NCBI GenBank assembly: GCA_902625325.1
Contig: CACOAW010000013.1
Coordinates: 1-33,083, forward strand
Reading direction: 5' to 3'
DNA: 33,083 bases
From: an uncultured Candidatus Poseidoniales archaeon
Lineage (GTDB): Archaea; Thermoplasmatota; Poseidoniia; Poseidoniales; Thalassarchaeaceae
Below the pieces are notes generated by a model. That model did not search any database. It had not been told where the DNA came from and worked only from the letters and a program-made list of their open reading frames with translations. Numbering within the stretch: the stretch's first letter is position 1; each line of letters opens with the position of its first letter. Shown one piece after another: positions 15,628-30,990 of the stretch. The position numbers and the translations under genes are program-made.

Positions 15628-16610
15628 CAACTCACCAGTAACTCCCTGCACGCCCTTTTCGTTAAGACCTTCACCATCTTTCTTCTATAAGAGGGGGAGA
15701 ACCAGGTGTTCTGTACAGGCTTAACTGCCTTTCTAATCGACTCTGATAGAATTTCGACGGTTTCAACTCCGCTCCAATTCTCAAGTGCGCCCTCCGCTTC
15801 TTCTGAATGCAAGCTAGGAATAGACTCTAGGCCAGTGGTTGCTACTCTAAGACTTGACGGGCCATATCCCTCATCTCCTTTCCAGAGAACAGCTACCCCC
15901 GCTTCAGGGAAGTCCCAGGACTCACGCTGCCTCAACTTCTGATAGTCTCCGCTCCAATCTGATGCGTCTTCAGGGAGAGTGATATGGGTGACCATTTCTC
16001 CAAGTTCGAGTACATTCCTGGTCATTCCGTCTAACTTGAAGAAATCACATAGTGGCATGGAGCGCTTTCCTTTGGGCGATGCCAGGTGGATTGTGGCACC
16101 AAGGCACATCAGTACAGGAGCCAAATCAGCTTGATAGGTTGCAACGCATAGCGTGTTTTGGTTTGGAATTACTCGACAATCGGCCCCAGTGCCACAATCA
16201 CATTTGTGACACCAGTCAATTGACTCCCTCCATGTTTCCGACTGATTGATCCAGTAGCACCTAGTATCCAGGCATATATTCCCTCCAACTGTCCCGGACC
16301 TTCTGATCATTACACTCGCAATTGAGTCTGCTGCCTTGGCCAACACAGGGTGGGTCGACTCGTGCTCGGCTAACTCATTGATACTGACCATAGCGCCAAT
16401 ACTTTCCTCGCTTATTTCTCGCAACTCGGCTATACAAGAAAGCGAGATAACGTGCCCCTTCACATTGATGTGCCACTTGTAATTTGGCAGCAAATCGGTC
16501 CCTCCAGCGACCCAGTCGAACTCCTCTCCAGATTCTGAAAGTTCTCTAGACATTGTTAGTGCCTCATCCAAACTCTTCGGTGAAAGAACACGGAAGGGGG
16601 GCATCCTCAT
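15627..16610 (-). CDS. FAD subunit of a molybdenum hydroxylase, 4-hydroxybenzoyl-CoA reductase beta type with extra Fe-S insertion
   Basis: A 327-residue FAD-binding subunit of the xanthine-oxidase family. Flavin motifs are AGGTDLLP at about 35-42 and SGTVGGNICLDTR at about 105-117. Unlike CoxM or XdhB, it has a cysteine-rich insertion right after the second motif, with Cys118, 134, 137, 139, 145 and 155. The spacing of 118/134/145/155 is close to the four ligands I recall for the [4Fe-4S] cluster of Thauera HcrB (16, then about 8, then about 9 residues). Electrons in HBCR pass from ferredoxin through this cluster to FAD, the 2Fe clusters and Mo. The ATG at 16610 overlaps the large-subunit stop as ATGA; an in-frame ATG at 16649 is possible but lies inside that gene. 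Confidence 0.88.
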   Translation of the reverse strand: MRMPPFRVLSPKSLDEALTMSRELSESGEEFDWVAGGTDLLPNYKWHINVKGHVISLSCIAELREISEESIGAMVSINELAEHESTHPVLAKAADSIASVMIRRSGTVGGNICLDTRCYWINQSETWRESIDWCHKCDCGTGADCRVIPNQNTLCVATYQADLAPVLMCLGATIHLASPKGKRSMPLCDFFKLDGMTRNVLELGEMVTHITLPEDASDWSGDYQKLRQRESWDFPEAGVAVLWKGDEGYGPSSLRVATTGLESIPSLHSEEAEGALENWSGVETVEILSESIRKAVKPVQNTWFSPSYRRKMVKVLTKRACRELLVS

Positions 16611-19396
16611 TCTTGCCCCTCCGCATGCCTTCTTTCTGTGTGCTTCCAAGCACTACCTGCGAGCCTAGGGGACTCTAGATATTCCTCCTCGGGAGTTACT
16701 CTCACTGACCACCTGGGGTCAACTTCGTCCGGAGGGATTGTGGGGTCCAGGCCGAATAATGCACCATTATGATAATCCGATCTCCCCTCATCCAGTCTCC
16801 TATCCTTGTCCCTTTTCCCATGTTCCTTAGCTCTGTTTTCTAGAACTCCTTGGAGAGATGAATGTTGAAGCGATGGGCTAGTCAGATTATTCGGATCCGA
16901 TACCCCTTCCATTCTGCAACGCTTCTCGATCATTTTGTGCACCTTCTCTGGAGACATTGGTAACTCGGAGGTCCTAATCCCTATTGCATCGTAGACGGCG
17001 TTGCAAACAGAAGGCAGAATCGGAAGAAGAGGGCCCTCCCCCGCCTCTTTGGCTCCAAATGGGCCCTCTGGGTCGTTCGACTCCACTATTATGGGAATTA
17101 CTTCCGGCATTTCATGAATGCTCGGGATCTTGTAATCTAGGAGATCGGGATTCATCAGATTGCCACTTCTTCCATATCTCATTTCTTCCGATAGAACTTG
17201 TCCCATTCCCATGTGGCAAGATCCGATTATCTGCCCCTTTACAGCCAACGGGTTCAGAGCCTTTCCACAGTCGTGAGCTGCCCATACCTTGTCTACTTTG
17301 ATTTGACCAGTCTCCACATCGACAGAAACTTCTGTCACATAAGCAGAGAAAGAGTATGCTGGAGCCAGTCCAGCCGCTGCTCCCTTGTGCATCTTCCCCA
17401 TAGGGGGGGTCCTGTATGCGCCAGAGGCAACTAAGGCTCCCCTGTCTTCTTGTGATTTGTGAAGAGCTTCGAGGTATGATACCCCAACCGCTGGATCCTC
17501 TTTTAGGAAGATTCTCCTATCCCCAATAACCAATCCGCTTCTTTCCGCTCCTGTGATTTCAACCGTAGCATCTAGTAACTCCTCCCTGATTTGCATGGCT
17601 GCCGAGATAGCAGCGTTGGCGTTCATGAAGGTCACTCTGGAGGAGTAAGAGCCCAGGTCTACCGGAGAAGTATCAGAATCCCTCGATTTCACTCTGATCA
17701 TATCTAGCGGGAGCCCGAGAACCTCTGCTACGGATTGGGCTACGACTGTATCAGAACCTTGCCCAATGTCTGCGGCTCCCGTGTGTATCGTAACCCCGCC
17801 ATCCATATCTATCTTCAAATGAACGGTTGCATGTGGGAACTTATTCGGATCCCAGTGTATGGGTAGGCCACTTCCTGAAATGAAGAAACCACATCCAATG
17901 CCGATTCCCTTCCCAAGAGGAAGTTTCCGGAATTTTTTATTCCAGCCACTTTCCTCTCTGACCCTCTCTAGACATTCCCTCATCCCTATGCTTGTTACTC
18001 TGAATCCGGTAATTGTCGCCGAGTGTGGAGGGAGGAGATTCGCTAAACGCAATGATATCGGGTCTACGCTCAACTTCTCCGCCAAGTCATCCAGACCTAC
18101 TTCTACTGCGCATCTAGAATTCACCGCTCCATGGCCGCGCATAGCTCCACTGGCAGGTTTGTTCGTCCAAACCCTAGCTCCCGTGTAGTGGAAAGCACCA
18201 ATTTCGTAGGGAGCAGTATGGAGGACCCCGTTGTAATAGGTTGTCACGTGTCCAAAGGAGGCGAACGCCCCTCCATCTATCAGAGCATCAGTCTCGATTC
18301 CACATATTCTCCCTTCGTCATCAGCATGTAGGTTCATCTCAATCCGCGAAGGATGTCGACCTCTGTTCACCCAGTAAACCTCTTCCCTATCGAAAGTTAT
18401 CCGAACAGGTTTTCCAGACTTTCTTGCTAGAATCGCAGCACACATTTCGTGTGGGAATGGGTCCGACTTTCCACCGAAACCTCCTCCGACGAAGGTCCGA
18501 TGCACATTGATTTGATGCATTGGAATCTCCAATACATCAGCTAGCGCCCTGTGTACGTAGTGTGGAACCTGCTGCGGAGTATACAGCGTGAGCCTTCCAG
18601 TTGGGTCCCAGTGTGCCACTACTGCGTGTGGCTCAGTGAATGCGTGGTTTACTCCGGCGAAAATCCAATTCTTTTTGTGGCTAGCAACAGAGTTTTCTAT
18701 CATTCCTTCTATGTCTCCGAATTCTTGGAAAACCCTCTTCTGGACGTTTGACTCTCCTATGTGGTAGTCACCTCTGTCATGTATGGGTTCTTCACTGTCT
18801 TCGAGCCCTTTCCTCATGTCATGAATTGGATCAATCAATTCGTACTCCACTTGGATCAGCCTCTCCGCCTCCCTAGCCGTAGCCTCGTCAATCGCTGCAA
18901 CGCATGCAACAAGATCGCCTGCATGCCGAACCTTCTCTACAGCCATCGCGTGCTCGTCCTTTGTCACAGGTAGAACTCCGAACTTATTCTTCGCATCATC
19001 GCCAGTTGCAATAGCAACTACACCGGGCAACTCTAGAGCCTTAGTGCAATCAATGGATAGAACTCTGGCATAGTGATGGGGTGAACGAACAATCCGTCCA
19101 ATCAACTCTCCAGGTAGCCTGACATCGTCTCCGTAATGCGCTTGCCCCGTTACCTTCCAAGAACTGTCCACAAGCGAAGTAGATTTACCAATCACTCTGC
19201 CGCTAATGAGTTCATCGTGCCTATGTGGACCCCATTCCTGAGCGAGTTTTCCTCCTTGGGATTCAGGAATCATTTCTTGATCCGTAGCCTCTGAGAATTT
19301 TCCTTTCCCTCCAGACCCAGGTCTGGAAAAGGGGAGTTTTCCTGGTTGTTGCCTATATCCCACTATCTCCTTGGGAGCATCCTCTTTTTCAGACAT
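16607..19396 (-). CDS. Molybdopterin-binding large subunit of the molybdenum hydroxylase, HBCR alpha-like, with N- and C-terminal extensions
   Basis: A 929-residue Mo-cofactor subunit. Visible features: KVTGQAHYGDDVRLPGEL at about 81-98 where homologues normally begin; FVGGGFGGKSDPFPHE at about 302-317; SGAMRGHG near 416-423; the IGQGSDTVVAQ Moco contact near 544-554; GSYSSRVTFM near 582-591; and catalytic Glu787 in KEAGEGP. The GGGFGGKSDPFPHE and YSSRVTFM blocks look most like 4-hydroxybenzoyl-CoA reductase alpha. HcrA is about 770 residues; the extra length here is about 75 charged residues at the N-terminus and about 110 at the C-terminus, neither recognised. The ATG at 19396, 1 base after the small-subunit stop and behind GGGGGAG, is preferred over the GTG at 19429. 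Substrate is unproven. Confidence 0.92.
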   Translation of the reverse strand: MSEKEDAPKEIVGYRQQPGKLPFSRPGSGGKGKFSEATDQEMIPESQGGKLAQEWGPHRHDELISGRVIGKSTSLVDSSWKVTGQAHYGDDVRLPGELIGRIVRSPHHYARVLSIDCTKALELPGVVAIATGDDAKNKFGVLPVTKDEHAMAVEKVRHAGDLVACVAAIDEATAREAERLIQVEYELIDPIHDMRKGLEDSEEPIHDRGDYHIGESNVQKRVFQEFGDIEGMIENSVASHKKNWIFAGVNHAFTEPHAVVAHWDPTGRLTLYTPQQVPHYVHRALADVLEIPMHQINVHRTFVGGGFGGKSDPFPHEMCAAILARKSGKPVRITFDREEVYWVNRGRHPSRIEMNLHADDEGRICGIETDALIDGGAFASFGHVTTYYNGVLHTAPYEIGAFHYTGARVWTNKPASGAMRGHGAVNSRCAVEVGLDDLAEKLSVDPISLRLANLLPPHSATITGFRVTSIGMRECLERVREESGWNKKFRKLPLGKGIGIGCGFFISGSGLPIHWDPNKFPHATVHLKIDMDGGVTIHTGAADIGQGSDTVVAQSVAEVLGLPLDMIRVKSRDSDTSPVDLGSYSSRVTFMNANAAISAAMQIREELLDATVEITGAERSGLVIGDRRIFLKEDPAVGVSYLEALHKSQEDRGALVASGAYRTPPMGKMHKGAAAGLAPAYSFSAYVTEVSVDVETGQIKVDKVWAAHDCGKALNPLAVKGQIIGSCHMGMGQVLSEEMRYGRSGNLMNPDLLDYKIPSIHEMPEVIPIIVESNDPEGPFGAKEAGEGPLLPILPSVCNAVYDAIGIRTSELPMSPEKVHKMIEKRCRMEGVSDPNNLTSPSLQHSSLQGVLENRAKEHGKRDKDRRLDEGRSDYHNGALFGLDPTIPPDEVDPRWSVRVTPEEEYLESPRLAGSAWKHTERRHAEGQE

Positions 19397-19397
19397 A

Positions 19398-20030
19398 CTA
19401 ATCTCCCCCGAATCCTGGATGAGGGTCACTCTTTGATTGGGTCGAGTCGATCACTGCTTGGTCCGAGACTAGGATATCCGAAGCGGCTTTGACTGAGTCA
19501 ACTATCTGCTGGAATCCAGTACAACGACATAGATTCCCCTCTATTGCTTGCTTTATATCTTGGTCGTTAGGTTTGCTATTTTCGGACAGTAATGCCGAAA
19601 TTACCACTAAGAAACCGGGTGTGCAGAACCCGCATTGACTGCCCCCACACTCCGCGAATGTCTGCTGTATCGGATGCAGATGATGACCATCAGCTAATCC
19701 TTCTACTGTTATGATATCGGCTTGCTCAGTATCTACAGCTAGAGTAAGACAAGACAACCTCGGCTCCCCGTCGATTAATACAGAACAGCATCCACAGGTC
19801 CCCATATCGCATCCACGCTTGGTCCCCAGGCTCCCAACACGGTCCCTTAGCACGTCAAGAAGAATCGCATTGCTCTCAATTAATACGGTTACTTCTTCGT
19901 CATTTACTTTGGCGTTCCACTCAACCCCATCGGAAGGGGGTAGCATAGGTAGCCGGAACTGCACCACACTACGACCAATCAAGCTCATCCTTTGAGCATT
20001 CGGTTCCCCGTGATGTCTATTGGAAATCAT
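19398..20030 (-). CDS. [2Fe-2S] subunit of the molybdenum hydroxylase
   Basis: A 210-residue small subunit with both expected domains: a plant-type [2Fe-2S] ferredoxin fold with Cys74, 79, 82 and 94 (KRGCDMGTCGCCSV), then the helical all-alpha [2Fe-2S] domain with Cys133, 136, 168 and 170 (CGGSQCGFCTPGF and GNLCRCTG). It passes electrons between the Mo centre and FAD. The N-terminus is about 35 residues longer than typical HcrC/CoxS; starts at 20030 (inside the regulator's end, 14-base overlap) and Met15 (19988) are both possible. A tail of about 25 residues beyond the last cluster is also unusual but not informative. Confidence 0.95.
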   Translation of the reverse strand: MISNRHHGEPNAQRMSLIGRSVVQFRLPMLPPSDGVEWNAKVNDEEVTVLIESNAILLDVLRDRVGSLGTKRGCDMGTCGCCSVLIDGEPRLSCLTLAVDTEQADIITVEGLADGHHLHPIQQTFAECGGSQCGFCTPGFLVVISALLSENSKPNDQDIKQAIEGNLCRCTGFQQIVDSVKAASDILVSDQAVIDSTQSKSDPHPGFGGD

Positions 20031-20661
20031 TAACCGCTCTTTTTAGAACTTCAGATTCGGCCCTCTTCAGATGCTCTCCTGTGGTGCTTCTTGCTATTCC
20101 GAGCTCATCAGCGAGTTGCTTCAATGTTACCTCCGCTCCATCTTCGTAGTATCCTCTGTTCACAGCTAGTTCTAGCACTTCTCTCTGCTTTTCAGTTAGG
20201 AAATCGAGATCCTTCGAAGTTCCGTTCTTTACTGTCTGTACACTAATTGTGTCTGGTGGCATTACTTCTCTGACGAATTCCAAGAAACTTCGTATAGAGC
20301 TTGAAATCCCAAAGATTCTGAACTCCAGACCGCTCTTAGAATCGATTCCGTATGGGGGGTAGACATAGATGTTCGACAACTCCAACGCAGAAAGTGCTAG
20401 AGGGTGTGTGCAACGAATGCTAACTAACACGCCGCTTTCATCCTCTTCATGCGTTTCAATAACATCAAAACTCTCCAAATCCGAGATTTCAGATAGATAC
20501 CGTCCTTTGTTAATCCCCAATTCTACCAGTTGGGTAACTCCTCCCTTATCGGTAGAAAGGTGACCAAGAACCTCTATCCTGTGACAAATCTCCATCAGTT
20601 TGTCGATCTCATCTATCCCGGAAAGAGAGGAAACCTTCCACCTAAGGAGAACCTTCCTCAT
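20017..20661 (-). CDS. Bat-type HTH_10 transcriptional regulator
   Basis: A 214-residue archaeal regulator. The C-terminal 50 residues are the bacterio-opsin-activator HTH: LTEKQREVLELAVNRGYYE, then VTLKQLADELGIARST and GEHLKRAESEVLK. The N-terminal 150 residues form an unrecognised sensory region with no clear cofactor motif. It is the first gene of the molybdenum-hydroxylase operon (overlapping the [2Fe-2S] subunit by 14 bases), so it probably controls that operon and itself. A good TATA box 20-29 bases before the ATG indicates a leaderless transcript. Confidence 0.9.
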   Translation of the reverse strand: MRKVLLRWKVSSLSGIDEIDKLMEICHRIEVLGHLSTDKGGVTQLVELGINKGRYLSEISDLESFDVIETHEEDESGVLVSIRCTHPLALSALELSNIYVYPPYGIDSKSGLEFRIFGISSSIRSFLEFVREVMPPDTISVQTVKNGTSKDLDFLTEKQREVLELAVNRGYYEDGAEVTLKQLADELGIARSTTGEHLKRAESEVLKRAVNDFQ

Positions 20662-20680
20662 GATATGGGAATCTCTTCTT

Positions 20681-20690
20681 GATATTTAGA
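20681..20690 (-). promoter_or_regulatory. TATA box of the regulator and molybdenum-hydroxylase operon, leaderless
   Basis: Read leftward the bases are TCTAAATATC, an archaeal TATA-like box, centred about 25 bases before the A of the ATG at 20661. With the usual spacing this puts transcription start at or next to the start codon, so the mRNA would be leaderless. There is no Shine-Dalgarno sequence before this ATG, which agrees. Confidence 0.5.
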
Positions 20691-20697
20691 GAACACC

Positions 20698-21912
20698 CTA
20701 GTTCCAGTATGCTTCCCTAATCTCTTGATTGGACTCCATACAGAGTTCCACATCGAAGGGCCTCTGGGACATTGAACTGCTCCCATTCAGGTGCTCGATG
20801 ATTGGGAGGACATTGCTTTCGTTCACTACTCCCCATCCCACTTGTGTGCATGGCGCCACAGGCGAAATTGGAGTTGTTCCCGAAAGTGGGTCCCAACTGG
20901 AAAATGATGGATACCATGCTGAGAGATTCAAAGCATCCCTGATGTCATCGTTGGTGAGCGTGAAATTCGATCCGTTCACCATTAGCCCCATCCTATCTAA
21001 CGGGTCGGCACCTGAGGAAAAATCCTCGAATTCCGATCTTAGAGAGACGAGTACTTTGGAGAGCAGTCCAGCGGTCCTTGGCGTTGCAAACGAGGTTCCT
21101 GAAGTCTGATGATAACCGTCTATATCGTCATGGTTAGGAAGCATTTGAGTCCAGTCTGCAGCTATATCGGGGTAAGAACCGCTCATGGTCTCTTTCTGAT
21201 CGTCATCCTCTTCAGCATAACCCGAAACCCCAATACTCCATGGAGGTCCGGCCGTTGAGTCTTGAATAGCGGGAGAAGGAGAGTTATCCGCAGCACCAGT
21301 GTGAATCTTCTTTTCTTCCACAACTGCGACTTTGGTGGCATCCTCAATTCCAGGGACTGGCACTGAAAGTATGGGTCCAAAGCTAGTTGTGATTAAATCC
21401 ACCAGAGGTTGGTTCGCAGCAGCAAGAACAGCTGCATTACTGAAACCTTCGACGAAGAAAATCACCGCTTCCGGGTTCGCGTCAATAACCGCACCTGTTA
21501 CTGCGGTACCATGCCCATCGCTAGGATCGTCGAGGATTGGTATATCCGTATTATCATCGGGAGTAGTGCCAATTATTCTCGAACCCTTGAACCAAACAAT
21601 GTCTTCGGAACTAATCACGTCCCAGCAATCTTCTCTATCCGCTTCGTAACGCTCTTCCCAGGTTCCGTTTTTGCTAATTTCACAAACCTTGTTTACTCCA
21701 AGTTGATCGAGGAGCCATTTAGGGTAAGACTCGTTCATTGAGAAGTGATTATGGTATACGTTAATCCCAGTATCGATTGGAGCTACGACACTGAAAGCCC
21801 CGAAAGAGTCGTCTACTACTGCGATGTCTTCTTTCTCCTCACTCTCTTCCATACATCCGACTAAGCTTGCAGAAATGACCAGTATGGAGGTCAGGGCCGA
21901 CAGAACCTTCAT
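20698..21912 (-). CDS. Subtilisin-like serine protease, lipoprotein
   Basis: A 404-residue S8 peptidase. The N-terminus is a lipoprotein signal with lipobox SASLVGC, Cys20 being the lipidation site. The catalytic set is complete: Asp47 (PIDTGIN), His134 (SDGHGTAVTG), oxyanion Asn210 (AADNSPSP) and Ser274 (SGTSFATP). Unusually the Asp lies only 27 residues after the lipidated Cys, so there is no room for the classical inhibitory propeptide. Cys77, 96, 355 and 393 could form disulfides. It would act outside the membrane, anchored by lipid. It lies between xdhC (31-base gap) and the regulator (36-base gap) on the same strand, without obvious functional connection. Confidence 0.88.
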   Translation of the reverse strand: MKVLSALTSILVISASLVGCMEESEEKEDIAVVDDSFGAFSVVAPIDTGINVYHNHFSMNESYPKWLLDQLGVNKVCEISKNGTWEERYEADREDCWDVISSEDIVWFKGSRIIGTTPDDNTDIPILDDPSDGHGTAVTGAVIDANPEAVIFFVEGFSNAAVLAAANQPLVDLITTSFGPILSVPVPGIEDATKVAVVEEKKIHTGAADNSPSPAIQDSTAGPPWSIGVSGYAEEDDDQKETMSGSYPDIAADWTQMLPNHDDIDGYHQTSGTSFATPRTAGLLSKVLVSLRSEFEDFSSGADPLDRMGLMVNGSNFTLTNDDIRDALNLSAWYPSFSSWDPLSGTTPISPVAPCTQVGWGVVNESNVLPIIEHLNGSSSMSQRPFDVELCMESNQEIREAYWN

Positions 21913-21943
21913 GGCACCCGGAATTTAACAACCAATTTGATAC

Positions 21944-22783
21944 TTAGGTAGCCCTGTTCTTCCTTTCGAGAGATAGAACTTCTGCGCAAACCGCAATTGC
22001 AATTTCTTCCGGAGTATCCGCCCCTATGTCGAGGCCAATAGGGCACCTTACTGAGTCTATCAGCCACTTCTCCACCCCACTTTCAACAGCCTTCTTCTCG
22101 AAAGCTGACCATTTCTTCTTCGATCCGATAGCTCCAATCCGAGGCCTACTTCCTGTTCTGCATAATTGTAGTAATCCGACCAGCATCTCTTCATCAACCG
22201 ACCAATCATGACTCAACAGTAGAATATCTGAAAAACGAGCCAAAGAATCCTCACTTTCGCTCTTGAGAAAATCCTCGACAGATGAACAGAAACTCGCCTC
22301 AGCGTTCGGATAACGCTTTTCGTTACAATATTCCTCTCTGATATCGAATACGCTATACGACCATTCCAGAGAATCACACACCCTTGAAATCGAGAGACCA
22401 ACGTGCCCCCCGCCCGCAATCAAGATGTGAGGCAGTGGATTAATCACTTCCATAGCTACTGTCACCCGCCCCCCGCATAGACTGTCGAGGGCAGATGCCT
22501 CTTTTCCTTTGCCATCTCTATTTAGAAGGAATTCCTCAACTTTTCCTCCTTTTTTTCTTAGGTCAGACAAATCCCGGGACAGAATTTCTTGAAGCTCCTT
22601 TTCAACCGTTAATTCCAACCCTGCTCCACCGATAGTTCCAAACTTTTCACCCGAGGAGCTAATCGCAAGCCTTGCTCCTGGTTTCCCAGGAACGCTCCCA
22701 CTGGCCCGGATCACCGATGCAATAGCGACTCTTTCTCCAGCTTCTACTTTTTCGATGGCCCAGTGTAGGACTGCGACGGTCAC
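21944..22783 (-). CDS. xdhC: XdhC/CoxI family Mo-cofactor maturation protein
   Basis: A 279-residue XdhC-family protein. The N-terminal XdhC domain has VIRASGSVPGKPGARL and the LCGGRVTV block with its Cys; the C-terminal Rossmann domain has ILIAGGGHVG, a LLSHD strand end, the IGAIGSKKKW loop and the diagnostic RCPIGLDIGADTPEEIAIAV. XdhC proteins bind molybdenum cofactor, help its sulfuration and deliver it to xanthine-oxidase-family enzymes. Its obvious client is the enzyme at 15627-20030, a few genes downstream. The start is GTG at 22783 with no strong ribosome site. A 69-base gap separates it from the metal exporter upstream. Confidence 0.93.
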   Translation of the reverse strand: MTVAVLHWAIEKVEAGERVAIASVIRASGSVPGKPGARLAISSSGEKFGTIGGAGLELTVEKELQEILSRDLSDLRKKGGKVEEFLLNRDGKGKEASALDSLCGGRVTVAMEVINPLPHILIAGGGHVGLSISRVCDSLEWSYSVFDIREEYCNEKRYPNAEASFCSSVEDFLKSESEDSLARFSDILLLSHDWSVDEEMLVGLLQLCRTGSRPRIGAIGSKKKWSAFEKKAVESGVEKWLIDSVRCPIGLDIGADTPEEIAIAVCAEVLSLERKNRAT

Positions 22784-22852
22784 AGGTATCCGTCGGGGTA
22801 CCGACCTTTGGAGTTGTGTGGATCTTCAGATACGTCTGAGTGTCCCTCGGAA

Positions 22853-24100
22853 TTAGAAAGATACGTCCAGAATCATAAGCCCTATTCCCAAAATTAGGGC
22901 AGGAATAGTTGTGTGTAGCGTTGCCCAGAGGCTAGCTAGCCTGTGTCTAACCAAAAGTGGAAAAAGAGCATCTCCGTCTTGGCTAACCGCATTCGCAGCC
23001 AAAGCCGGGAATGAAATCAGATCCTTAGTGTAGGCGGTAATGGCAATAATCTGAGGTCCGCAACCGGGTACTAATCCAATGAAAGAAGCGACTACAACCG
23101 CAAAAATCCCATCACCATACTTGGCTAAGTCTGCTTCGTTGGTCCCCGAGAATAACATGGTGAACTCGAAAATCAGGTAAGCAGCCATGACCCAGAACGT
23201 GACAAATGCAGTTTCACTTGCAGAGTGTATTAATGTCTCTCTCATCGAATAGAGTTTGTCCCCAATAGAAGCTTCTGTGTCGTCACGAATCCAGGTTTTC
23301 TGAGACAGGTACAGTATTATTGACAAAGTTGTACCTATCAAACCTATCCAAGTTATGAAACCATCCAACGTAAATGGATTATATTCTATCGAAAGCACAA
23401 AATCAGGGTCTTGAGAGCTCCAAAAAAGTAACATTACTGCGAATACCAATCCAATTGAGGTAACTATCCACCACAAGGTGTAACCTTGGTGAAGAAGGAA
23501 ATAACCCGGGCCGCTCTCTTCTTCTCTTCCAAGATCATCAAAGACTGTTTGCGTATCTTCCGAATCCCCTAATTTGATAATTTCCTGTCCATTCGTCGAC
23601 TCTGATCTATGTAATAATCCGCCCAAAGGGCTCTGTGGAGTGATACTCATTCCATCTATTAGGTAGCCCCATGTAACTCCTGTCAAGAATGAGATGACAT
23701 GTACCGCAACTGCGGGGGCCACGAAAGAGGGGTCAGTGAGAGCAGCACCAATCAAGACGAACGCAGCATCCCCGAGGGTTGCGATCAGAGTGGCTATTAC
23801 GGTTCCATAGCTGACGAAACCCCTAGTGTACATTGGCATTATTACAATGGCTCCGCCACAACCAGGAGTGATGCCCATAATGGCACCAATCAGAGGCTGC
23901 CATCGCCTTTTCGTTCGAATCACGTCTACAAACCTTCCAGCGGTAATGTACTGTAACCAACTGAACAGCAGAACCATCGAAGCAACAAATACGGTCACGG
24001 CTAGAAAGGCATCTCGCATACTCACAACTACCACCTCGATTACTTCAGCAGAGGTTGGCATTACACATTCCACTCCAAGTTTGTATAAATCATTTGACAT
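22853..24100 (-). CDS. 10-TM putative manganese/heavy-metal exporter (ArsP_2 / PF11449 type)
   Basis: A 415-residue multi-pass protein built as two inverted halves. Each half has a helix-breaking PGCG motif: GITPGCGGAIVIMPMYTRG near 75-93 and GLVPGCGPQIIAITAYT near 338-354. Each PGCG is followed by a conserved GDA motif (LGDAAF and QDGDALFPLL). These are hallmarks of the putative manganese transporter / 10-TM heavy-metal exporter family. A hydrophilic loop of about 45 residues separates the halves. Substrate is a guess from the family: Mn2+ or another divalent ion. It sits among Mo-cofactor genes, between the MocA-like gene and xdhC. The ATG at 24100 is used; Met14 (24061) is an alternative. 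The 103-base gap upstream (24101-24203) is AT-rich and holds no gene. Confidence 0.82.
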   Translation of the reverse strand: MSNDLYKLGVECVMPTSAEVIEVVVVSMRDAFLAVTVFVASMVLLFSWLQYITAGRFVDVIRTKRRWQPLIGAIMGITPGCGGAIVIMPMYTRGFVSYGTVIATLIATLGDAAFVLIGAALTDPSFVAPAVAVHVISFLTGVTWGYLIDGMSITPQSPLGGLLHRSESTNGQEIIKLGDSEDTQTVFDDLGREEESGPGYFLLHQGYTLWWIVTSIGLVFAVMLLFWSSQDPDFVLSIEYNPFTLDGFITWIGLIGTTLSIILYLSQKTWIRDDTEASIGDKLYSMRETLIHSASETAFVTFWVMAAYLIFEFTMLFSGTNEADLAKYGDGIFAVVVASFIGLVPGCGPQIIAITAYTKDLISFPALAANAVSQDGDALFPLLVRHRLASLWATLHTTIPALILGIGLMILDVSF

Positions 24101-24203
24101 CTAAACATGGAGGAATGAGATACTCCATTTTCCCGATTTTGAAATAGGACTCATCAAACTCAATTAGTTCAGAACCCAGGTTTAGAAATGAGTAATCCCT
24201 ATT

Positions 24204-24800
24204 CTATTCATTAACCAATTGTAGTTTCTCTTGAAGATTAATTATATCCTCTGGGGTATCTATGTTCAGTTCTAGAAATCTGTCTAAAACCTCGAATCTA
24301 CTTGCCTCGATTACTTCTCTCAATGGTAAATTTGCTGAACTTTTCCTTACCTTGTCGACATCTTCGAAAGCCAGCACTAGAGGGTGCCCTCCCCTGCCTT
24401 CCTTCATAGGACAGGAGGTCTCTTCTGAACAGATTAGACGATCCAGAGTTGAATCTGAGAATCCTGGTCGATCTACTGGAACAACAAGCAATCTGTAATC
24501 CTTTAACCCCGAGGAATCAATACTGTCAATCCCCACTTTCAGAGAACCAGTTCTACCTTCATGAGGATTATGGTTTAGGATTACATTAACACCACTCATA
24601 ATTTTGGAAATTCTCGCAAAATTTGACTCATTTGCAACTATGGTGATATTTGCCACACGACTCGATAATCTTCTTGAAATCCAACTGATAAGTGTCTGAG
24701 AGCCGACATCAACTAATGCCTTATCCATGCCGAGCCTACTGCTTGAACCAGCCGCAAGAATGATGCACTCCACACTATCGCTCCTTAAACTCATTAGCAT
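24204..24800 (-). CDS. MocA/MobA-like molybdenum cofactor nucleotidyltransferase
   Basis: A 198-residue nucleotidyltransferase of the NTP_transf_3 family. Motifs are CIILAAGSSSRLGMDKALVD at about 12-31 (nucleotide loop, consensus LAAGxSxRMGxxK), the PVDRPGFS metal-binding loop, GGHPLVL and NIDTPED near the end. The PVDRPGFS loop with a following Leu-rich helix is closer to MocA (CTP, making the cytosine dinucleotide cofactor used by xanthine-oxidase-family enzymes) than to MobA (GTP). Genomic context supports that. Other NTP_transf_3 roles such as sugar-nucleotide synthesis cannot be excluded. It starts 6 bases after the Na+/Ca2+ exchanger stop. Confidence 0.75.
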   Translation of the reverse strand: MLMSLRSDSVECIILAAGSSSRLGMDKALVDVGSQTLISWISRRLSSRVANITIVANESNFARISKIMSGVNVILNHNPHEGRTGSLKVGIDSIDSSGLKDYRLLVVPVDRPGFSDSTLDRLICSEETSCPMKEGRGGHPLVLAFEDVDKVRKSSANLPLREVIEASRFEVLDRFLELNIDTPEDIINLQEKLQLVNE

Positions 24801-24806
24801 ATCTCG

Positions 24807-25766
24807 CTAAAATAATCCGTCTAGGAAACCACCGAGATAGATCATGTAGAATAGGTAAGTTGTGATCATCATAGTTCCAATATTTTTGGTGAATTCCTTT
24901 CCAGATATGAGCATCCATACTACGAATCCCGATGTTGCCATTACCACTAAAATGTCTCTCTGAAACTCTACATCGACAGTAATCCCACTCCCAACAATAC
25001 TCGCTATCCCAATTATCCCCATGATGTTCATAACATTGGAACCTAGTACGTTACCTACGGCAACCCCTCCTTGCCCCCTTATCCCAGCTACTAGCGTAAC
25101 AGCAAGTTCAGGCAACGAGGTCCCCAGTGCTACCACGGTCAGACCAATAACGGCCTCCGAGACCCCGAAGGTCTCAGCAATACCAGTTGATCCAATTACA
25201 AGTAATTCAGCACCATACCATATCATCCCACCACCAATGACACAGAAAGGGATAGCAAGTGACATTTTGTTTGGTAGCCACGAGTCTTCGAACTCATACT
25301 CATCTTCCGCCGATATTGCAACTGTGTAGGTGTAGTAGTAGTAAACTATCAGACATGTCAACATTACTACGCCACCCAGAAGGGGAACTTCTCCAAAATA
25401 AACGAATATTGCCATGAATAGAGTGGCTACCACTACTGCCATCGCATCCCTTTTTACCCCTTTTTCTACGTCAGATTTTGCCCCTAAGACGGCTGCCGCT
25501 CCCAAGACCAACATCACGTTTGCGACGTTAGAACCTAGGACTCCTCCAACTGCAATGTTTGGTACCCCGCTATCTATAGCCTCAATCGCAACAGCCAGTT
25601 CGGGTAGTGATGTTCCAATTGCTACGACTGTGAATCCCACTACAAGGGGGGATATGCTTAGTATCTGGGATATCCTAGTAGCTCCTTGAACAAGAGCCTC
25701 CCCTCCGAACATTAGCAAAGCAAAACCGATCAGGACGAAAGCAACGTCAACAACGGTCCCATCCAT
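24807..25766 (-). CDS. Na+/Ca2+ exchanger family antiporter
   Basis: A 319-residue CaCA-family transporter of the bacterial/archaeal YrbG type. Both ion-binding alpha repeats are intact: VVGFTVVAIGTSLPELAVAI followed by GVLGSNVANVMLVLG in the first half, and VIGLTVVALGTSLPELAVTL followed by NVLGSNVMNIMGIIG in the second. About ten membrane helices are predicted. It exchanges Na+ for Ca2+ (or K+/H+ variants). The ATG at 25766 is preceded by an AGTAAATTG stretch centred about 26 bases upstream that could be a weak TATA box. It heads a leftward run with the MocA-like gene. Confidence 0.93.
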   Translation of the reverse strand: MDGTVVDVAFVLIGFALLMFGGEALVQGATRISQILSISPLVVGFTVVAIGTSLPELAVAIEAIDSGVPNIAVGGVLGSNVANVMLVLGAAAVLGAKSDVEKGVKRDAMAVVVATLFMAIFVYFGEVPLLGGVVMLTCLIVYYYYTYTVAISAEDEYEFEDSWLPNKMSLAIPFCVIGGGMIWYGAELLVIGSTGIAETFGVSEAVIGLTVVALGTSLPELAVTLVAGIRGQGGVAVGNVLGSNVMNIMGIIGIASIVGSGITVDVEFQRDILVVMATSGFVVWMLISGKEFTKNIGTMMITTYLFYMIYLGGFLDGLF

Positions 25767-25821: not shown

Positions 25822-28686
25822 TCATTTTGGACATGCTCTCTCGATATGCCTGGAAACCACCTCGACACTTGGTATAGTGTGGTCCTCAAGTGTTGGTGAG
25901 AAAGGGACAGGAGTATCCAATGCTCCTATAACTACGGGGGGGGTTTCCAACCTCCAGAACGACTCTTCGATAATTCTGCTCGAGACTGTATGGCCAAAAC
26001 CACCAGTCCACTGGGACTCTTGCAGAACGATCAGTCTGCCAGTCTTGAGAACCGAGTTGATACATGTCCCGGAGTCTAAGGGAAAGAGAGTTCTCAAATC
26101 CACAACTTCGACTTCAATCCCCCTATTCGACACATTCTCTGCTGCATCAAGAGCAACATGTACCATGGCACCCCAGGTGACAATTGTGAGATCAGCGCCT
26201 CCCCTGACTATTCTTGCCTTGCCAATCGAACTATCTCCATTTTCTAGCCTATTCATTACAGCCTCTGTATCAACTATTTGATTGATAGATTTGCCCCAGC
26301 CAGTTATGCCCCCTCTAAGTCCGTACAGCCCAATATGCTCGAGATAGACAACAGGATCTGGCAGATGGTGTGACTCAATAAGCAGGTCATAAGCATCCTG
26401 CGGATTACTTGGAGTCACGATGATCAATCCAGGATCATTTGTAAGCCATGATTCAATCATGTTAGCGTGAAATGGCCCACTCCTAGTCTTCGCTCCTAGG
26501 GGAATTCGCACTGTCATAGGTACCTCTGCGCCCCATCTCCATCTCAATTGGGCCGCATTGTTGACTAGAGGGTTCATTGCTAGTGCTGCAAACCCCCCGA
26601 ACTGTATCTCTGCAAGTGGCCTCATCCCTCCCAGGGCTGCACCTGTCGCTGAGTGGATAATTATGGCCTCGGATAATGGCATATCGAGAAGTTTTGATTG
26701 GTGACCCTTAGCCTTGAGTCCCAAATTCATTCCGAATGCACCTGCTACTTCCATATCCTCGCCCATGAACACCATTTGATCGCCGAATTGGTCTGCAAGT
26801 GCTGCCATACCATTCTGAATTGCTCTACTGTAACTCCAAGAATTGGGGGCATCGGAGAACTCTATTGAGAGGCCCCCAGAATATATACTGGTACTCGAAA
26901 CAGTTCCTGACCCGTCAATCCTCCGTAGTTGCTTCTCGTGACTCGGTGCGTCCGAGATTGATGTAACTCCTTTGACAACCGAATTTCCCTCCGGCCACTC
27001 CATTTTTTCCAATTCTCTCCTGGCTAACTCCACTTTGCCTTCTTCTTCCATCTGAATGCGGTTGAGTTTTTGTTCTCCCACCCCGAGTTTTATCAATAAC
27101 TCCCTATGGTTTGGGAGCGGATCTTTCTCGGACCAGTATCGCAGTAACTCCCTGTCAACATAACCTGGGGGGTTGCCGCTTGATGCTCCAAGATACAAGT
27201 CATCATGGTGATGAGCGTGCCCACAACCTCTCATTGTTTCCACGTGGATCAGCGTTGCTCCGCATCCATCCTTGGCGAACTCCTTGGCAACTGCAGTAGA
27301 TGCGTAGAATAGCGCTGGATCAGATCCATCAATAGTCCAGGCGGGGATTCCCATTGCATGCCCCTTGTCACCGAATGTCTCTGCTCCTGATTGAGCAGAA
27401 TTGACTGTATCAAGTGCTATCTGATTATTCTGAATCATGAAGCAAATTGGCAAACCACGAACTCCAGCGAAATTCATTGCCTCCCAGAACTCTCCGCTAC
27501 TGCTACAACCCTCTCCTACAGGGGCTAAGTGAAATCTACTAACTCCCAGCCTACTTGCAGCCAGTGCCACTCCCGTAGTCGTTGCACTTGCAATAGGCAA
27601 TGGTGCGGTAGGAGGCAGGATCCCTTTCTCCCAGTTCCCAATATGCAGGTCTCTACCGCCGCTTCCTTGAATTCCACCGTCCATGTAGGACTCTGCCTTT
27701 CCCATTTGGGCAGAAAAGACCTCGATCGGGGTCTGTCCCATTGCAAGTGCCAGGCCCATATCTCTGATCATTGGGGCTACAATGTCTGCGTTGTGACGGT
27801 TTTCTTCCGGCAGATCAACTGCACGCGTCATAGCTGTTGCACAAGCCACTACTCCTTCCTGCCAGGTTGATCTGAAACCCTTTCCACCAAAACTACCTCC
27901 ATCTGGGGTGGGCAAACCATTGGTAAAGAGGTCCTTCAACTCCTCATCCACTAATCTAGTCTGAATCATTCGCCTCTGCCATTCGATTCTATTTTCCACA
28001 GTAATCGAAGCATAATGTGCAATTCTTCTCAAGCAAAGTGTCAGATCAATTAGTAGTCTGTCCAACCTCCTCTTTAGGAATACTTCACCCTGCCTCATCG
28101 GTATGATTTCTGATTTCACAAGCCCAGATAGATCGGGCTCTAACGTCCTTTCCAGATATCTTTCCTCGACAACTCTAATGAATCCCTGAGAGAATTCATG
28201 AAACTCTTCCCCCGTCATTCTCTCTTTACATTTCATTGAATCCCAACATTCTGAAACAGAATTTAGATGTCCATCGTGTCTCTCAGCTACAAATTCTAGC
28301 AAACTTTTCTTGGCTCTTTTTGACTTCAGCTTTGATGGAAAAGTCAATGCATTTTCAGGAATCCACCCTATGCCCCAAATTTTCGGTATATTAGACCGCA
28401 GTTCCTCATTTTCATCTTCATTAACGGCTGCGATGGAATCTCCAATAGCCCCCTCATTCCTTCTCCGAGCCTCTTCTTCTAGAGCTGCCCAATCCCCATG
28501 ATTCCTTTCCCAAATTTCGACGTTTCGTAGTCTGCCCTTCCCTGAGGCAGACCTATCGAGGGTCGTTCGAACCCTTTTTCCGCATCCCGTACATTTACGA
28601 TCCAATTTGTTTGACTTGTGTGACCTAGTCTTCCAGGTTTGGTGAAGTTGGCATTCTGGACACTTCCAAACTCCTCTCCTCGCCAT
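25822..28686 (-). CDS. Fused E1 alpha-beta 2-oxoacid dehydrogenase with N-terminal zinc ribbon
   Basis: A 954-residue protein. Residues 9-35 are a zinc ribbon (Cys9, Cys12, Cys32, Cys35); residues about 36-240 are a charged helical region I do not recognise. The E1 alpha domain follows (about 240-540): MIQTRLVDEELKDLF, RDMGLALAMGQ, and the thiamine-diphosphate site GEGCSSSGEFWEAMNFA at about 391-407 ending in IQNN. The usual GDG is GEG here. The E1 beta domain (about 615-954) has MGEDMEVAGAFG, the GPFHANMIESW His and VVDLRTLFPLD. Best fit is branched-chain 2-oxoacid dehydrogenase E1; no E2 or E3 is nearby. The frame extends to a TTG at 28740, but the ATG at 28686 opens directly into the zinc ribbon and is preferred. 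Confidence 0.88.
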   Translation of the reverse strand: MARRGVWKCPECQLHQTWKTRSHKSNKLDRKCTGCGKRVRTTLDRSASGKGRLRNVEIWERNHGDWAALEEEARRRNEGAIGDSIAAVNEDENEELRSNIPKIWGIGWIPENALTFPSKLKSKRAKKSLLEFVAERHDGHLNSVSECWDSMKCKERMTGEEFHEFSQGFIRVVEERYLERTLEPDLSGLVKSEIIPMRQGEVFLKRRLDRLLIDLTLCLRRIAHYASITVENRIEWQRRMIQTRLVDEELKDLFTNGLPTPDGGSFGGKGFRSTWQEGVVACATAMTRAVDLPEENRHNADIVAPMIRDMGLALAMGQTPIEVFSAQMGKAESYMDGGIQGSGGRDLHIGNWEKGILPPTAPLPIASATTTGVALAASRLGVSRFHLAPVGEGCSSSGEFWEAMNFAGVRGLPICFMIQNNQIALDTVNSAQSGAETFGDKGHAMGIPAWTIDGSDPALFYASTAVAKEFAKDGCGATLIHVETMRGCGHAHHHDDLYLGASSGNPPGYVDRELLRYWSEKDPLPNHRELLIKLGVGEQKLNRIQMEEEGKVELARRELEKMEWPEGNSVVKGVTSISDAPSHEKQLRRIDGSGTVSSTSIYSGGLSIEFSDAPNSWSYSRAIQNGMAALADQFGDQMVFMGEDMEVAGAFGMNLGLKAKGHQSKLLDMPLSEAIIIHSATGAALGGMRPLAEIQFGGFAALAMNPLVNNAAQLRWRWGAEVPMTVRIPLGAKTRSGPFHANMIESWLTNDPGLIIVTPSNPQDAYDLLIESHHLPDPVVYLEHIGLYGLRGGITGWGKSINQIVDTEAVMNRLENGDSSIGKARIVRGGADLTIVTWGAMVHVALDAAENVSNRGIEVEVVDLRTLFPLDSGTCINSVLKTGRLIVLQESQWTGGFGHTVSSRIIEESFWRLETPPVVIGALDTPVPFSPTLEDHTIPSVEVVSRHIERACPK

Positions 28687-28745
28687 ATTGTTTTGAGTTA
28701 CGAATGAGCCTAGTACAACAATATTGGCCTGGATTTTCAAACTTT

Positions 28746-28873: not shown

Positions 28874-28920
28874 ATTACCATAATAAAAAGGGATACTGTG
28901 ATAATATATACCACATTAAT
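28874..28920. repeat. 47-base direct repeat, copy 2
   Basis: Second copy, starting exactly 80 bases after the first. Its last five bases enter the stop codon and final codon of the MoeB-like gene, so it is close to the transcript end of that gene. Read leftward it contains CCCTTTTTATT, which could act as a T-rich archaeal terminator. Confidence 0.65.
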
Positions 28921-30025
28921 ATTTGACTACGGTAGAATCTACCTCATCCGACCAGGCGTTAATCCCTCCCAATAGGTTGTAGATTATGCCGCCGCACAAT
29001 CCGGAATCCACGATGAACCTGGCTACGGCATCAGACCTCTGTCCACTTCGACAATAGACTACAATATCGCCTTGCGAGGGCAACTCTTCCAATCTGGAAG
29101 GTATTTCTAGATGCATTATTCTAGAATCAGTGCCCACAATTGACGAGATTTGTTCTTCTTGGGACCTTCTAACATCTAGGAGGAATGGGGTCCAACCATT
29201 ATTTCTTCTTTCGGCGAATTCCTTAGCAGTTATCTCAGAAAACCCCTTCTCTTGCTTTTTTGGGAGAGATGTTACCTTTTCTCGCTCGGTGTTCAAGGAA
29301 AACTCAAGTTTCCTGAAATCCATGGTCAAGGCATCGATTACTAGCAACTCTCCTGACAGACAGTTTCCAATACCAAGAATGATTTTGATTGCCTCGGTAG
29401 CTTGGATGGTTCCGACAATTCCGGGGAGAATTCCGAGAACTCCTGCCTCCGAGCAATTAGGCGCTAATTCTGGTGGTGGAGGCGATGGAAACAAATCCCG
29501 GTAGTTGGGGCCGTCTTTGAAATTAAATGATGAAACCTGCCCCTCAAATCTGTGAATACTACCAAAAATCCACGGTTTACCCAGAATCTCACATGAGTCA
29601 CCAATCAGATATCGTGACTCGAAATTATCTGTACCATCAATGACTACGTCATATTTGGAAATTATCTGAATCGAATTTTCACTAGTTAGTTTCTCTTCAA
29701 TTTCCTCTATTAGTACATCTGGATTTAATTCAGAGATCCGATACGATGCAGACTTAACTTTCGCACTCCCGATAGAAGAAGTACTGTGAATTATCTGCCT
29801 CTGCAAATTCGATGAACTTACATTATCATTGTCAACAATCCCGATTCTGCCCACTCCAGCAGCGGCCAAATACATCAATGCTGGAGATCCGAGACCCCCT
29901 GCTCCTACAACGAGAACTGATGATTTCAGCAATTTCTCCTGTCCCTCAGAACCAACATCCGGAAGGACCAGGTGCCGGGCATATCTCTCTCTCTGCTCCG
30001 GACTGAGATGGCGCGACATTGTCAT
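28916..30025 (-). CDS. moeB: MoeB/ThiF/Uba4-like E1 enzyme with C-terminal rhodanese domain
   Basis: A 369-residue protein (from Met at 30025). The adenylation domain has LVVGAGGLGSPALMYLAAAG, IVDNDNVSSSNLQRQ, VVIDGTDNFESRY and the catalytic Cys191 in APNCSEAGVLG. The rhodanese domain occupies about 265-360 with active Cys325 in VYCRSGQRS and a DVR motif. Such E1-like proteins adenylate the C-terminal Gly of MoaD/ThiS/SAMP-type proteins and transfer sulfur for molybdopterin, thiamine or tRNA thiolation. The two CxxC pairs of the usual structural zinc are missing (YRDLFPS where YRCLFP is usual). An upstream ATG at 30082 lies within trxB and would add 19 residues before the normal family start. 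Confidence 0.88.
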   Translation of the reverse strand: MTMSRHLSPEQRERYARHLVLPDVGSEGQEKLLKSSVLVVGAGGLGSPALMYLAAAGVGRIGIVDNDNVSSSNLQRQIIHSTSSIGSAKVKSASYRISELNPDVLIEEIEEKLTSENSIQIISKYDVVIDGTDNFESRYLIGDSCEILGKPWIFGSIHRFEGQVSSFNFKDGPNYRDLFPSPPPPELAPNCSEAGVLGILPGIVGTIQATEAIKIILGIGNCLSGELLVIDALTMDFRKLEFSLNTEREKVTSLPKKQEKGFSEITAKEFAERRNNGWTPFLLDVRRSQEEQISSIVGTDSRIMHLEIPSRLEELPSQGDIVVYCRSGQRSDAVARFIVDSGLCGGIIYNLLGGINAWSDEVDSTVVKY

Positions 30026-30060
30026 CGTGAATGGGAGTCCAATCAAGGTACCTTCGGTCC

Positions 30061-30990
30061 TCAATTCTGCTCTTCCAACCATTTTTCTGCATCAATCGCA
30101 GCTTGACACCCCATGCCAGCAGCTGTAATTGCTTGACGATACCTCTTGTCGACGACATCCCCTGCAGCAAAAACTCCAGGAACCTCAGTCATTGTATTCT
30201 CCTTGTGGACTATGTATCCCTCGGAGTCAGTCTCAATCTGTTCTTCGAGGAATTCAGTAATTGGTTTGTGACCTATGGCGATGAATGCACCAGCGCAACT
30301 AATCTCCTCCTCCGATCCATCTCGTGGATCCTCCAGTAACGCTCCAGTAAGACCTCGTTCGCCTGCAATCCATTTTTTCACTTGCCTAAATGTCTTGATT
30401 TCAATTTTAGGATGCTTCTCTGCTCTTTCATACATGACCTTTGAAGCCTTGAAAACATCTCTCCGGTGGATGACAGTAACCTTACTCGCAAACCTAGTCA
30501 GGAAAGTAGCCTCTTCCATCGCTGAATCTCCTCCTCCAACAACAATGATCTCCTCATCTCGGAAGAAAGCTCCATCACATGTGGCACATGTGGAAATCCC
30601 ACGTCCTTTCTGCTCCTCCTCACCCTCTGCTCCTAGCCAAATTGCTTCCGCACCCGTGCAAATAATCAGTGAATGAGCCCTGAACTCCTCTCCTTCGACC
30701 CAGACTCGAAAGGGCCGATCGGAAAGATCGACCCTTTCGACGTTCTTGTCATGAACCTCCAAACCGAATCTTTCGGCTTGCTCTCTCATATCGATCATCA
30801 TTTCGGGCCCGCCTATTCCCTTGGGGTATCCGGGGAAATTCTCAACATCTGATGTTAGCATTAGTTGACCCCCGGACATGTAACCTGCGAACATCAATGG
30901 ATTCAGCAGGGCTCTAGCCGTGTATAGGCCTGCAGTGTATCCCGCAGGGCCAGAACCAACAATTATTACACTTCTGACATCCTCTCCCAT
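30061..30990 (-). CDS. trxB: Thioredoxin reductase
   Basis: A 309-residue low-molecular-weight flavoprotein. FAD motif VGSGPAGYTAGLYTAR at about 11-26, redox pair Cys135/Cys138 (CATC), NAD(P)H motif VGGGDSAMEEA near 150, and the C-terminal FAD motif GVFAAGDV. It reduces thioredoxin at the expense of NADPH or, in some archaea, another donor; the HRRD sequence after the second Rossmann motif suggests NADPH-type recognition. It is divergent from the GYD gene (111-base gap) and probably co-transcribed with the MoeB-like gene downstream, which could use a thiol reductant. Confidence 0.96.
   Translation of the reverse strand: MGEDVRSVIIVGSGPAGYTAGLYTARALLNPLMFAGYMSGGQLMLTSDVENFPGYPKGIGGPEMMIDMREQAERFGLEVHDKNVERVDLSDRPFRVWVEGEEFRAHSLIICTGAEAIWLGAEGEEEQKGRGISTCATCDGAFFRDEEIIVVGGGDSAMEEATFLTRFASKVTVIHRRDVFKASKVMYERAEKHPKIEIKTFRQVKKWIAGERGLTGALLEDPRDGSEEEISCAGAFIAIGHKPITEFLEEQIETDSEGYIVHKENTMTEVPGVFAAGDVVDKRYRQAITAAGMGCQAAIDAEKWLEEQN

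Follow-up and report, generated by a model that had tools for sequence, protein, structure and literature searches.

The closest described relatives of the enzyme reported here are the alpha2beta2 E1 components of 2-oxoacid dehydrogenases, such as the pyruvate dehydrogenase (PDH) E1p of Geobacillus stearothermophilus (1w85), the E1 of Thermus thermophilus (1umb) and the branched-chain 2-oxoacid dehydrogenase (BCKDH) E1 of Pseudomonas putida (1qs0). Alpha and beta are joined in one chain in the bacterial E1 of Fuscovulum blasticum (WP_228156887.1), so the alpha-beta fusion as such is already known. AceE, the homodimeric PDH E1, is also a single-chain E1. The DNA analysed, referred to as the window, is a stretch of 33,083 nucleotides (contig CACOAW010000013.1, assembly GCA_902625325.1) from an uncultured archaeon of the order Poseidoniales, family Thalassarchaeaceae. 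According to PMC6461757, the Poseidoniales, or Marine Group II archaea, outnumber all other planktonic archaea in surface waters and have no cultured representatives. On the minus strand, at 25,822 to 28,686, the window encodes a single-chain E1 of 954 amino acids which begins with a four-Cys zinc ribbon, and homologues of this gene are found in the order.

The archaeal protein resembles the alpha2beta2 enzymes in its alpha to beta order, fold and thiamine diphosphate (ThDP)/Mg motif. The equivalents of E59beta, H128beta and H271alpha are kept. The roles of these residues and of Y102alpha come from G. stearothermophilus E1p, where, in the sections of PMC2663715 drawn on here, H128beta and H271alpha are tied to acyl transfer to lipoate, Y102alpha contacts the thiazole sulphur and phosphate, and the outer loop becomes ordered and engages the lipoyl domain. 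In contrast to the alpha2beta2 enzymes, the archaeal E1 is one chain with an extra helical domain and, in some genomes, the ribbon. Its outer loop is longer and contains HHH, Ile replaces Y102alpha, and no E2 gene adjoins it in the window. Identity to the F. blasticum protein was 31.5%, and the bacterial gene differs in lying directly before an E2 gene and in having no outer-loop insertion. Identity to E1s encoded on plasmids was about 30%. AceE is also present in the genome of the window, but its family TIGR00759 was absent from the 17 matches of the fused protein at E values up to 1. The nearest solved relative of the fused E1 was PDH E1p, though it is distant. Among named genomes the scan extended to close relatives alone, and comparison with other phyla was through plasmid records only. 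No mention of the ribbon fusion or of this single-chain E1 was found in the open-access paper listings consulted or in the portions seen of PMC9723583, PMC6461757, PMC6336850 and PMC3904984, which does not establish that none exists.

Domain Organization of the Fused E1

The open reading frame spans 25,822 to 28,740 and encodes 972 amino acids when read from TTG at 28,740. Residues are numbered here from the ATG at 28,686 (954-amino-acid form), and the gene coordinates include the stop codon. From the N to the C terminus, and all on the minus strand, the protein is comprised of the ribbon (residues 1 to 62; 28,501 to 28,686), a variable acidic linker of mostly lower predicted local distance difference test (pLDDT) score (63 to 97; 28,396 to 28,500), a helical domain of some 113 amino acids present in ribbon and ribbon-less forms alike (about 98 to 210; 28,057 to 28,395), and the fused E1alpha-E1beta. 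The E1alpha (ThDP/Mg) domain was placed by Pfam and structure alignment at residues about 211 to 590 (26,917 to 28,056). A junction of mostly low model confidence (591 to 614; 26,845 to 26,916) joins it to the E1beta domain (615 to 950; 25,837 to 26,844), which holds E673 and H740, the equivalents of E59beta and H128beta.

The Pfam domains E1_dh, Transket_pyr and Transketolase_C (PF00676, PF02779 and PF02780) were each detected over their cut-offs, with 120.6, 68 and 116.2 bits compared to 22, 27 and 25.9, respectively. A model of the full-length protein, based on 47 alignment rows, had a mean pLDDT of 74 and a predicted template modelling score of 0.77. The pLDDT fell below 50 in part of the outer loop (487 to 507). 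The model aligned to E1beta 1um9_B with a Z score of 36.0 (2.3 Å, 309 residues) and to E1alpha 1umb_C with a Z score of 31.7 (3.8 Å, 325 residues), the latter from residue 216. E1alpha started at residue 212 to 222 in several structure alignments, while in other rows, chiefly human BCKDH E1alpha, the first aligned residue was at 94 to 135. The border between the helical domain and E1alpha is only approximate because of this difference among rows.

The original prediction was of a four-Cys ribbon with CxxC at 9-12 and 32-35 and a complete fused E1, separated by about 200 unrecognised residues. The fusion was confirmed, with ribbon, E1alpha and E1beta forming one protein. C9, C12, C32 and C35 lie exactly as described, and the three E1 domains of Pfam were recognised behind them. 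There is a stretch without a recognised relative between them, but it is probably shorter than claimed and consists of the linker and the helical domain. The domain search and structure prediction proposed for the N terminus gave models of the ribbon and helical domain, but no Pfam family over cut-off. A Pfam search with residues 117 to 240, which include most of the helical domain, gave no match. Neither the ribbon nor the helical domain had a significant relative among solved structures or Pfam families, a result from which novelty of fold or family does not follow.

Distribution of the Fused E1

The fused gene was searched for in the host family (Thalassarchaeaceae, 148 genomes in 11 genera) and in a sister family, taken as Poseidoniaceae. 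Genus counts were tallied by hand from the search rows. Of the 148 family genomes, 136 contained the fused gene, complete or in part. Eleven others had a best match of merely E 1e-44 to 1e-57, as expected of a split E1, and one (G003) had none. The ribbon profile matched 103 of the 109 genomes belonging to seven of the 11 genera (g1, g3, g5 to g8 and g11). In the 39 genomes of g2, g4, g9 and g10 it gave no match better than E 0.0099. The six ribbon-genus genomes which were missed (G054, G069, G071, G114, G134 and G147) look like incomplete assemblies, as the fused E1 is missing there too.

Among the matches listed for the sister family the E1 was present in 71 of 71 genomes, in some as fragments; 44 genomes without a match were taken as outside this family from the kinship order of the matches listed. 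The sister-family matches begin at residue 112 or later of the 972-amino-acid query and have no ribbon save in G419. Most ribbon-less forms have a Met right at the start of the helical domain. In a third family of the class the best match (E 8e-76, 33% identity) contained an internal stop, and we see only what appears to be a split-type E1. As judged from these sequences, the single-chain E1 spans both Poseidoniales families examined, and the ribbon appears to be a later addition. The helical domain belongs to the core enzyme in the two families alike.

Ribbon and all or most of E1alpha were read in one frame of at least 582 amino acids in 100 of the 103 ribbon-bearing genomes, three of which had shortened frames (G136, G080 and G122). 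The idea that the ribbon is a separate gene in relatives was rejected on this count. In G065 and G123 ribbon and E1 are in different frames, in G025 the contig ends, and in G122 E1alpha and E1beta are split over two frames. Although the broken frames of G065, G123 and G122 are what an assembly fusion or a pseudogene would give, such an artefact is refuted by the one-frame counts and by ratios of nonsynonymous to synonymous substitution (dN/dS) far below 1 in all regions, and its probability is negligible. The fusion does recur in related marine archaea, a check which had been proposed together with the prediction.

Two unusual copies were seen. A 1075-amino-acid frame at G077:C17:27215-30391 contains ribbon and E1, and the stretch which joins ribbon to E1alpha exceeds that of its relatives by about 90 residues. 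The sister-family genome G419 carries a ribbon-bearing copy (L150, G419:C27:2687-5560) beside a ribbon-less one, and the former was read as probable contamination because it groups inside genus g8 in the tree.

Active Site and Outer Loop

Alignments leave out L050, L066, L076 and L100, and rows containing X were also excluded. The residues E392 (the Mg/ThDP acid), Q419, N420, N421, E673 (E59beta), H740 (H128beta) and H490 (H271alpha) were invariant in the 47-row alignment. A larger set of 86 distinct cores was selected by the motifs IRD.G and GED[ML]E, which are not evidence for that reason. GEG, QNNQIALDT and HAHHHD were each found in all 86 cores. The strict GPFHAN context of H740 was found in 77 of the 86, and a looser pattern which does not require His was found in all of them.

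The GEG of the Mg/ThDP motif (residues 391 to 393; 27,508 to 27,516, minus strand) had been pointed out as standing in place of GDG. Its presence in every core makes it a family trait without functional weight. It is no defect, as it is invariant in the family and the Mg site is otherwise kept. Human BCKDH E1alpha also has GEG. The thiamine site is plausible, with ThDP/Mg and catalytic residues retained, and from these residues the fused protein is predicted to be catalytically competent.

Alignment to canonical E1alphas placed a remodelled outer loop at residues 490 to 517 (HAHHHDDLYLG...; 27,136 to 27,219, minus strand). The loop is 10 to 11 residues longer than those of the genome's own split E1 and of the Fuscovulum, Sinorhizobium, Thermus and Pseudoroseomonas E1alphas, and 9 to 10 residues longer than those of 1w85 and 1um9. 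It is found in both families and was missed in the original prediction, and it more likely bears on function than does GEG.

Putative E2 Partner and Other E1s

Partners were checked in 15 selected genomes, namely the window's own and 14 others of 90% completeness or more, one of which consists of a single contig. One E2 was found in each. Split and fused alpha-beta-type E1s were both present in all 15, as was a match to POR_N of the 2-oxoacid:ferredoxin oxidoreductase family. AceE was over cut-off in 11 genomes; two had weak matches only and two had none. As split E1, fused E1 and AceE coexist in these 11 genomes, there are three E1s per single E2, and it may be inferred that several E1s share one E2.

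In the genome of the window both E2 and E3, which the prediction had left to be located, were found on a different contig. The E2 (L153:8453-9730) shares an operon-like array with a lipoyl-synthase-like gene, the split E1alpha and E1beta, the E3 and a lipoyl-ligase-type gene. The charge of its lipoyl domain is -11 and that of the following linker is -9. With E values no higher than 2e-121 to P. putida BCKDH E1alpha, the split E1alpha is of the BCKDH type. AceE (G000:C4:108958-111570; L155:2923-5586) scored 1207.3 bits against a cut-off of 859.9. Branched-chain acids and pyruvate were both considered as substrates of the fused enzyme by annotation, and neither is simply assignable, since a BCKDH-type split E1 and AceE are already in the genome.

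Zinc Ribbon

There were 56 distinct ribbon forms, of which three with X in the ribbon were put aside. The strict pattern W.C..C...Q.W..DR.C..C was found in all 53 others and is not a chance occurrence. When residues 1 to 261 were modelled (30 rows, mean pLDDT 77), the ribbon appeared as a small beta domain with strands at 4-8, 15-19, 27-31, 38-42 and 58-61, while residues 122 to 256 were mostly helical. The sequence pattern and the modelled strands agree with the paired CxxC knuckles and small sheet expected of a zinc ribbon, and the domain is predicted to bind zinc.

The ribbon has a net charge of +12 and many invariant Arg residues. The mean charge was +9.7 with a range of +7 to +14 (37/37 forms), unlike the linker and E1, which are acidic on average. 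None of 7357 windows of 62 residues from the 24 other proteins of the window reached +12, although these windows overlap and are not independent. Pooled dN/dS over 30 close pairs came to 0.068 in the ribbon and about 0.04 in E1, against 0.132 in the helical domain and 0.370 in the linker; the pairs share sequences and are not independent, and saturated pairs were dropped (two ribbon, four linker and one helical). The ribbon is under purifying selection.

A quick tree was constructed from 42 of 71 extracted rows, at most five per genus and state. It leaves out L014 and L147 (broken or cut frames), and L161, with ambiguous ribbon residues, was scored as ribbon-bearing by eye. Ribbon presence on this tree required one change of state. 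Rooted on the sister family, the tree is most simply read as a single gain of the ribbon, although it does not resolve the placement of g3.

No Pfam family was over cut-off for the window's ribbon, the S27e match being sub-threshold at E 0.22. Some other ribbon rows matched Pfam small zinc-domain models at E 0.002 to 0.005. Structural comparison gave Z scores of 3.2 to 3.6 over 43 to 52 residues with the zinc ribbons of aRF1 and of ribosomal chains, which we take to be eS27, helped by the sub-threshold match. The archaeal eS27 and aRF1 ribbons are similar to this one in size, but the structural resemblance is weak and there was no significant sequence match. The only other strong ribbon match in the 148 genomes was a second copy in G013 (G013:C11:512-748, L158; E 5e-24), which lies in a 264-amino-acid frame near a contig start, besides that genome's E1 copy. 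The next match was at E 3.6e-4 in a 34-amino-acid frame with a stop, and the rest were at E 0.007 or worse.

Genomic Neighbourhood

Neighbouring genes were compared at 63 loci. A ThiF/rhodanese-domain gene lies upstream of the fused E1 in the window (28,916 to 30,082, minus strand) and is conserved in 57 loci. A thioredoxin-reductase-like gene (30,061 to 30,990, minus strand) and, downstream, a gene of the Na/Ca exchanger family (24,807 to 25,766, minus strand) are each conserved in 50. A receiver-domain (REC) gene was found upstream, directly or with one gene between, at 27 of the 63 loci, in the ribbon-less genera and the sister family. It was present in 32 of the 148 family genomes, all of them among the 39 of g2, g4, g9 and g10. 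At E 1e-15 no REC gene was found in the 109 genomes of the ribbon genera. The REC proteins (L070:2143-3138, L082:2068-3192 and relatives) have a long uncharacterised C-terminal part; the whole protein is of about 336 amino acids in L070.

An acyl-CoA dehydrogenase gene directly follows E1 in 11 of the 61 loci which show a downstream neighbour, and in 10 of these 11 the stop-to-stop frames are 10 to 19 bases apart. Such adjacency would fit acyl-CoA production. Its nearest relative in the window's genome is on another contig (64% identity).

Elsewhere in the window, 16,607 to 24,800 (minus strand) encodes a molybdenum-hydroxylase-like set, namely a MoCoBD subunit, an XdhC-like protein and a MobA-like transferase; a gene for an ArsP_2-type exporter lies among them. 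An open reading frame of 308 amino acids at 9,603 to 10,529 (minus strand) had no Pfam match at E 0.001.

Possible Functions of the Enzyme and Ribbon

The reading which we tentatively favour, and which falls just short of probable, is that of an order-specific single-chain E1-type thiamine enzyme which probably shares the genome's E2 and uses the ribbon as a basic docking module. The retained residues suggest that the fused enzyme would decarboxylate a 2-oxoacid on ThDP. The only E2 may then accept the acyl group on its lipoyl domain, a step which is less firmly indicated than the decarboxylation. This E2 would be used by the BCKDH-type split E1 as well, and by AceE in genomes which have it. 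The ribbon, added in one branch of the family, would act in docking as a small basic domain which is stabilised by zinc and tethered by the flexible acidic linker. It would recruit an acidic partner, such as the lipoyl domain and linker of the shared E2, or nucleic acid.

A number of results weigh against this reading. The enzyme has neither the canonical lipoyl-engaging outer loop nor the Y102alpha of lipoyl-dependent E1s: the loop contains an invariant GHAHHHD, with three consecutive His, without the canonical RYR-type sequence, and the Y102alpha equivalent is I307, invariant in 47 rows. As the remodelled loop argues against ordinary lipoyl docking, the protein is assigned to the E1 superfamily and not as a proven member of a lipoyl complex. 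Scores for the NCBIfam PDH E1 alpha and beta models were under their cut-offs (195.8 vs. 321 and 134.6 vs. 411.35). The sole E2 of the window's genome sits with the split E1 and not the fused E1, and a Pfam scan of 20 other frames of the window found no E2, E3 or lipoylation gene. The acyl-CoA dehydrogenase gene was present in 22 of 63 loci and is not adjacent to E1 in most. An integral role of the ribbon in the enzyme is not supported. Four genera of the same family lack it, as does the sister family, one probable contaminant aside, and since the E1 persists there the basic reaction does not depend on the ribbon.

These results would suit a lipoyl-independent thiamine enzyme on an E1 scaffold, acting as a 2-oxoacid decarboxylase, as a ligase which forms acyloins or as an oxidase with a different acceptor. 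The GHAHHHD loop would then hold a second substrate or metal and not a lipoyl domain. We consider this possible but less likely than a lipoyl-linked E1. The invariant loop insertion of 9 to 11 residues with its three His (86/86 distinct cores), the Ile in place of Y102alpha, the lack of a dedicated E2 and the low identity to plasmid E1s all point this way, and other E1s in the genome already cover pyruvate (AceE) and branched-chain acids. However, the two His residues tied to acyl transfer to lipoate are both kept, and the C-terminal E1beta region is well conserved.

The ribbon itself may have other roles. Nucleic acid, the E2 core and metal or redox sensing had all been suggested, and the strong basicity fits the first two better than sensing. 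An RNA-binding domain which gives the enzyme a second, regulatory role would agree with the +12 charge, the invariant Arg residues and the likeness to ribosomal and aRF1 ribbons. That likeness does not rise above noise (Foldseek E > 1), the window's ribbon reached no sequence family, and a basic surface also suits an acidic protein partner. We regard RNA binding as possible but less likely than not. It is rather unlikely that ribbon and REC gene are alternative regulatory inputs, with REC loss and ribbon gain falling on one branch. Their distributions do exclude each other (REC in 32/39 genomes of the non-ribbon genera and 0/109 of the ribbon genera, with the ribbon in 103/109 of the latter). 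But with about one origin of the ribbon, the exclusion amounts to a single historical coincidence and gives no independent support for replacement, and the presumed phospho-acceptor position is Glu in some REC proteins. At its broadest, and with similarly low probability, the protein would be a new thiamine enzyme class of both Poseidoniales families. Here an E1alpha-beta scaffold would be freed from the lipoyl cycle, with the His-rich loop as a second-substrate or metal site and a helical domain without a relative found here, and control would have moved in one lineage from the REC protein to the fused ribbon.

For the Poseidoniales, the conservation of an E1-type enzyme which has no E2 of its own suggests an unassigned step in 2-oxoacid metabolism. 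The His-rich outer loop provides a direct test case for an E1 leaving the lipoyl cycle. The ribbon would represent a one-time gain of a domain by a metabolic enzyme, which was then fixed and strongly conserved.

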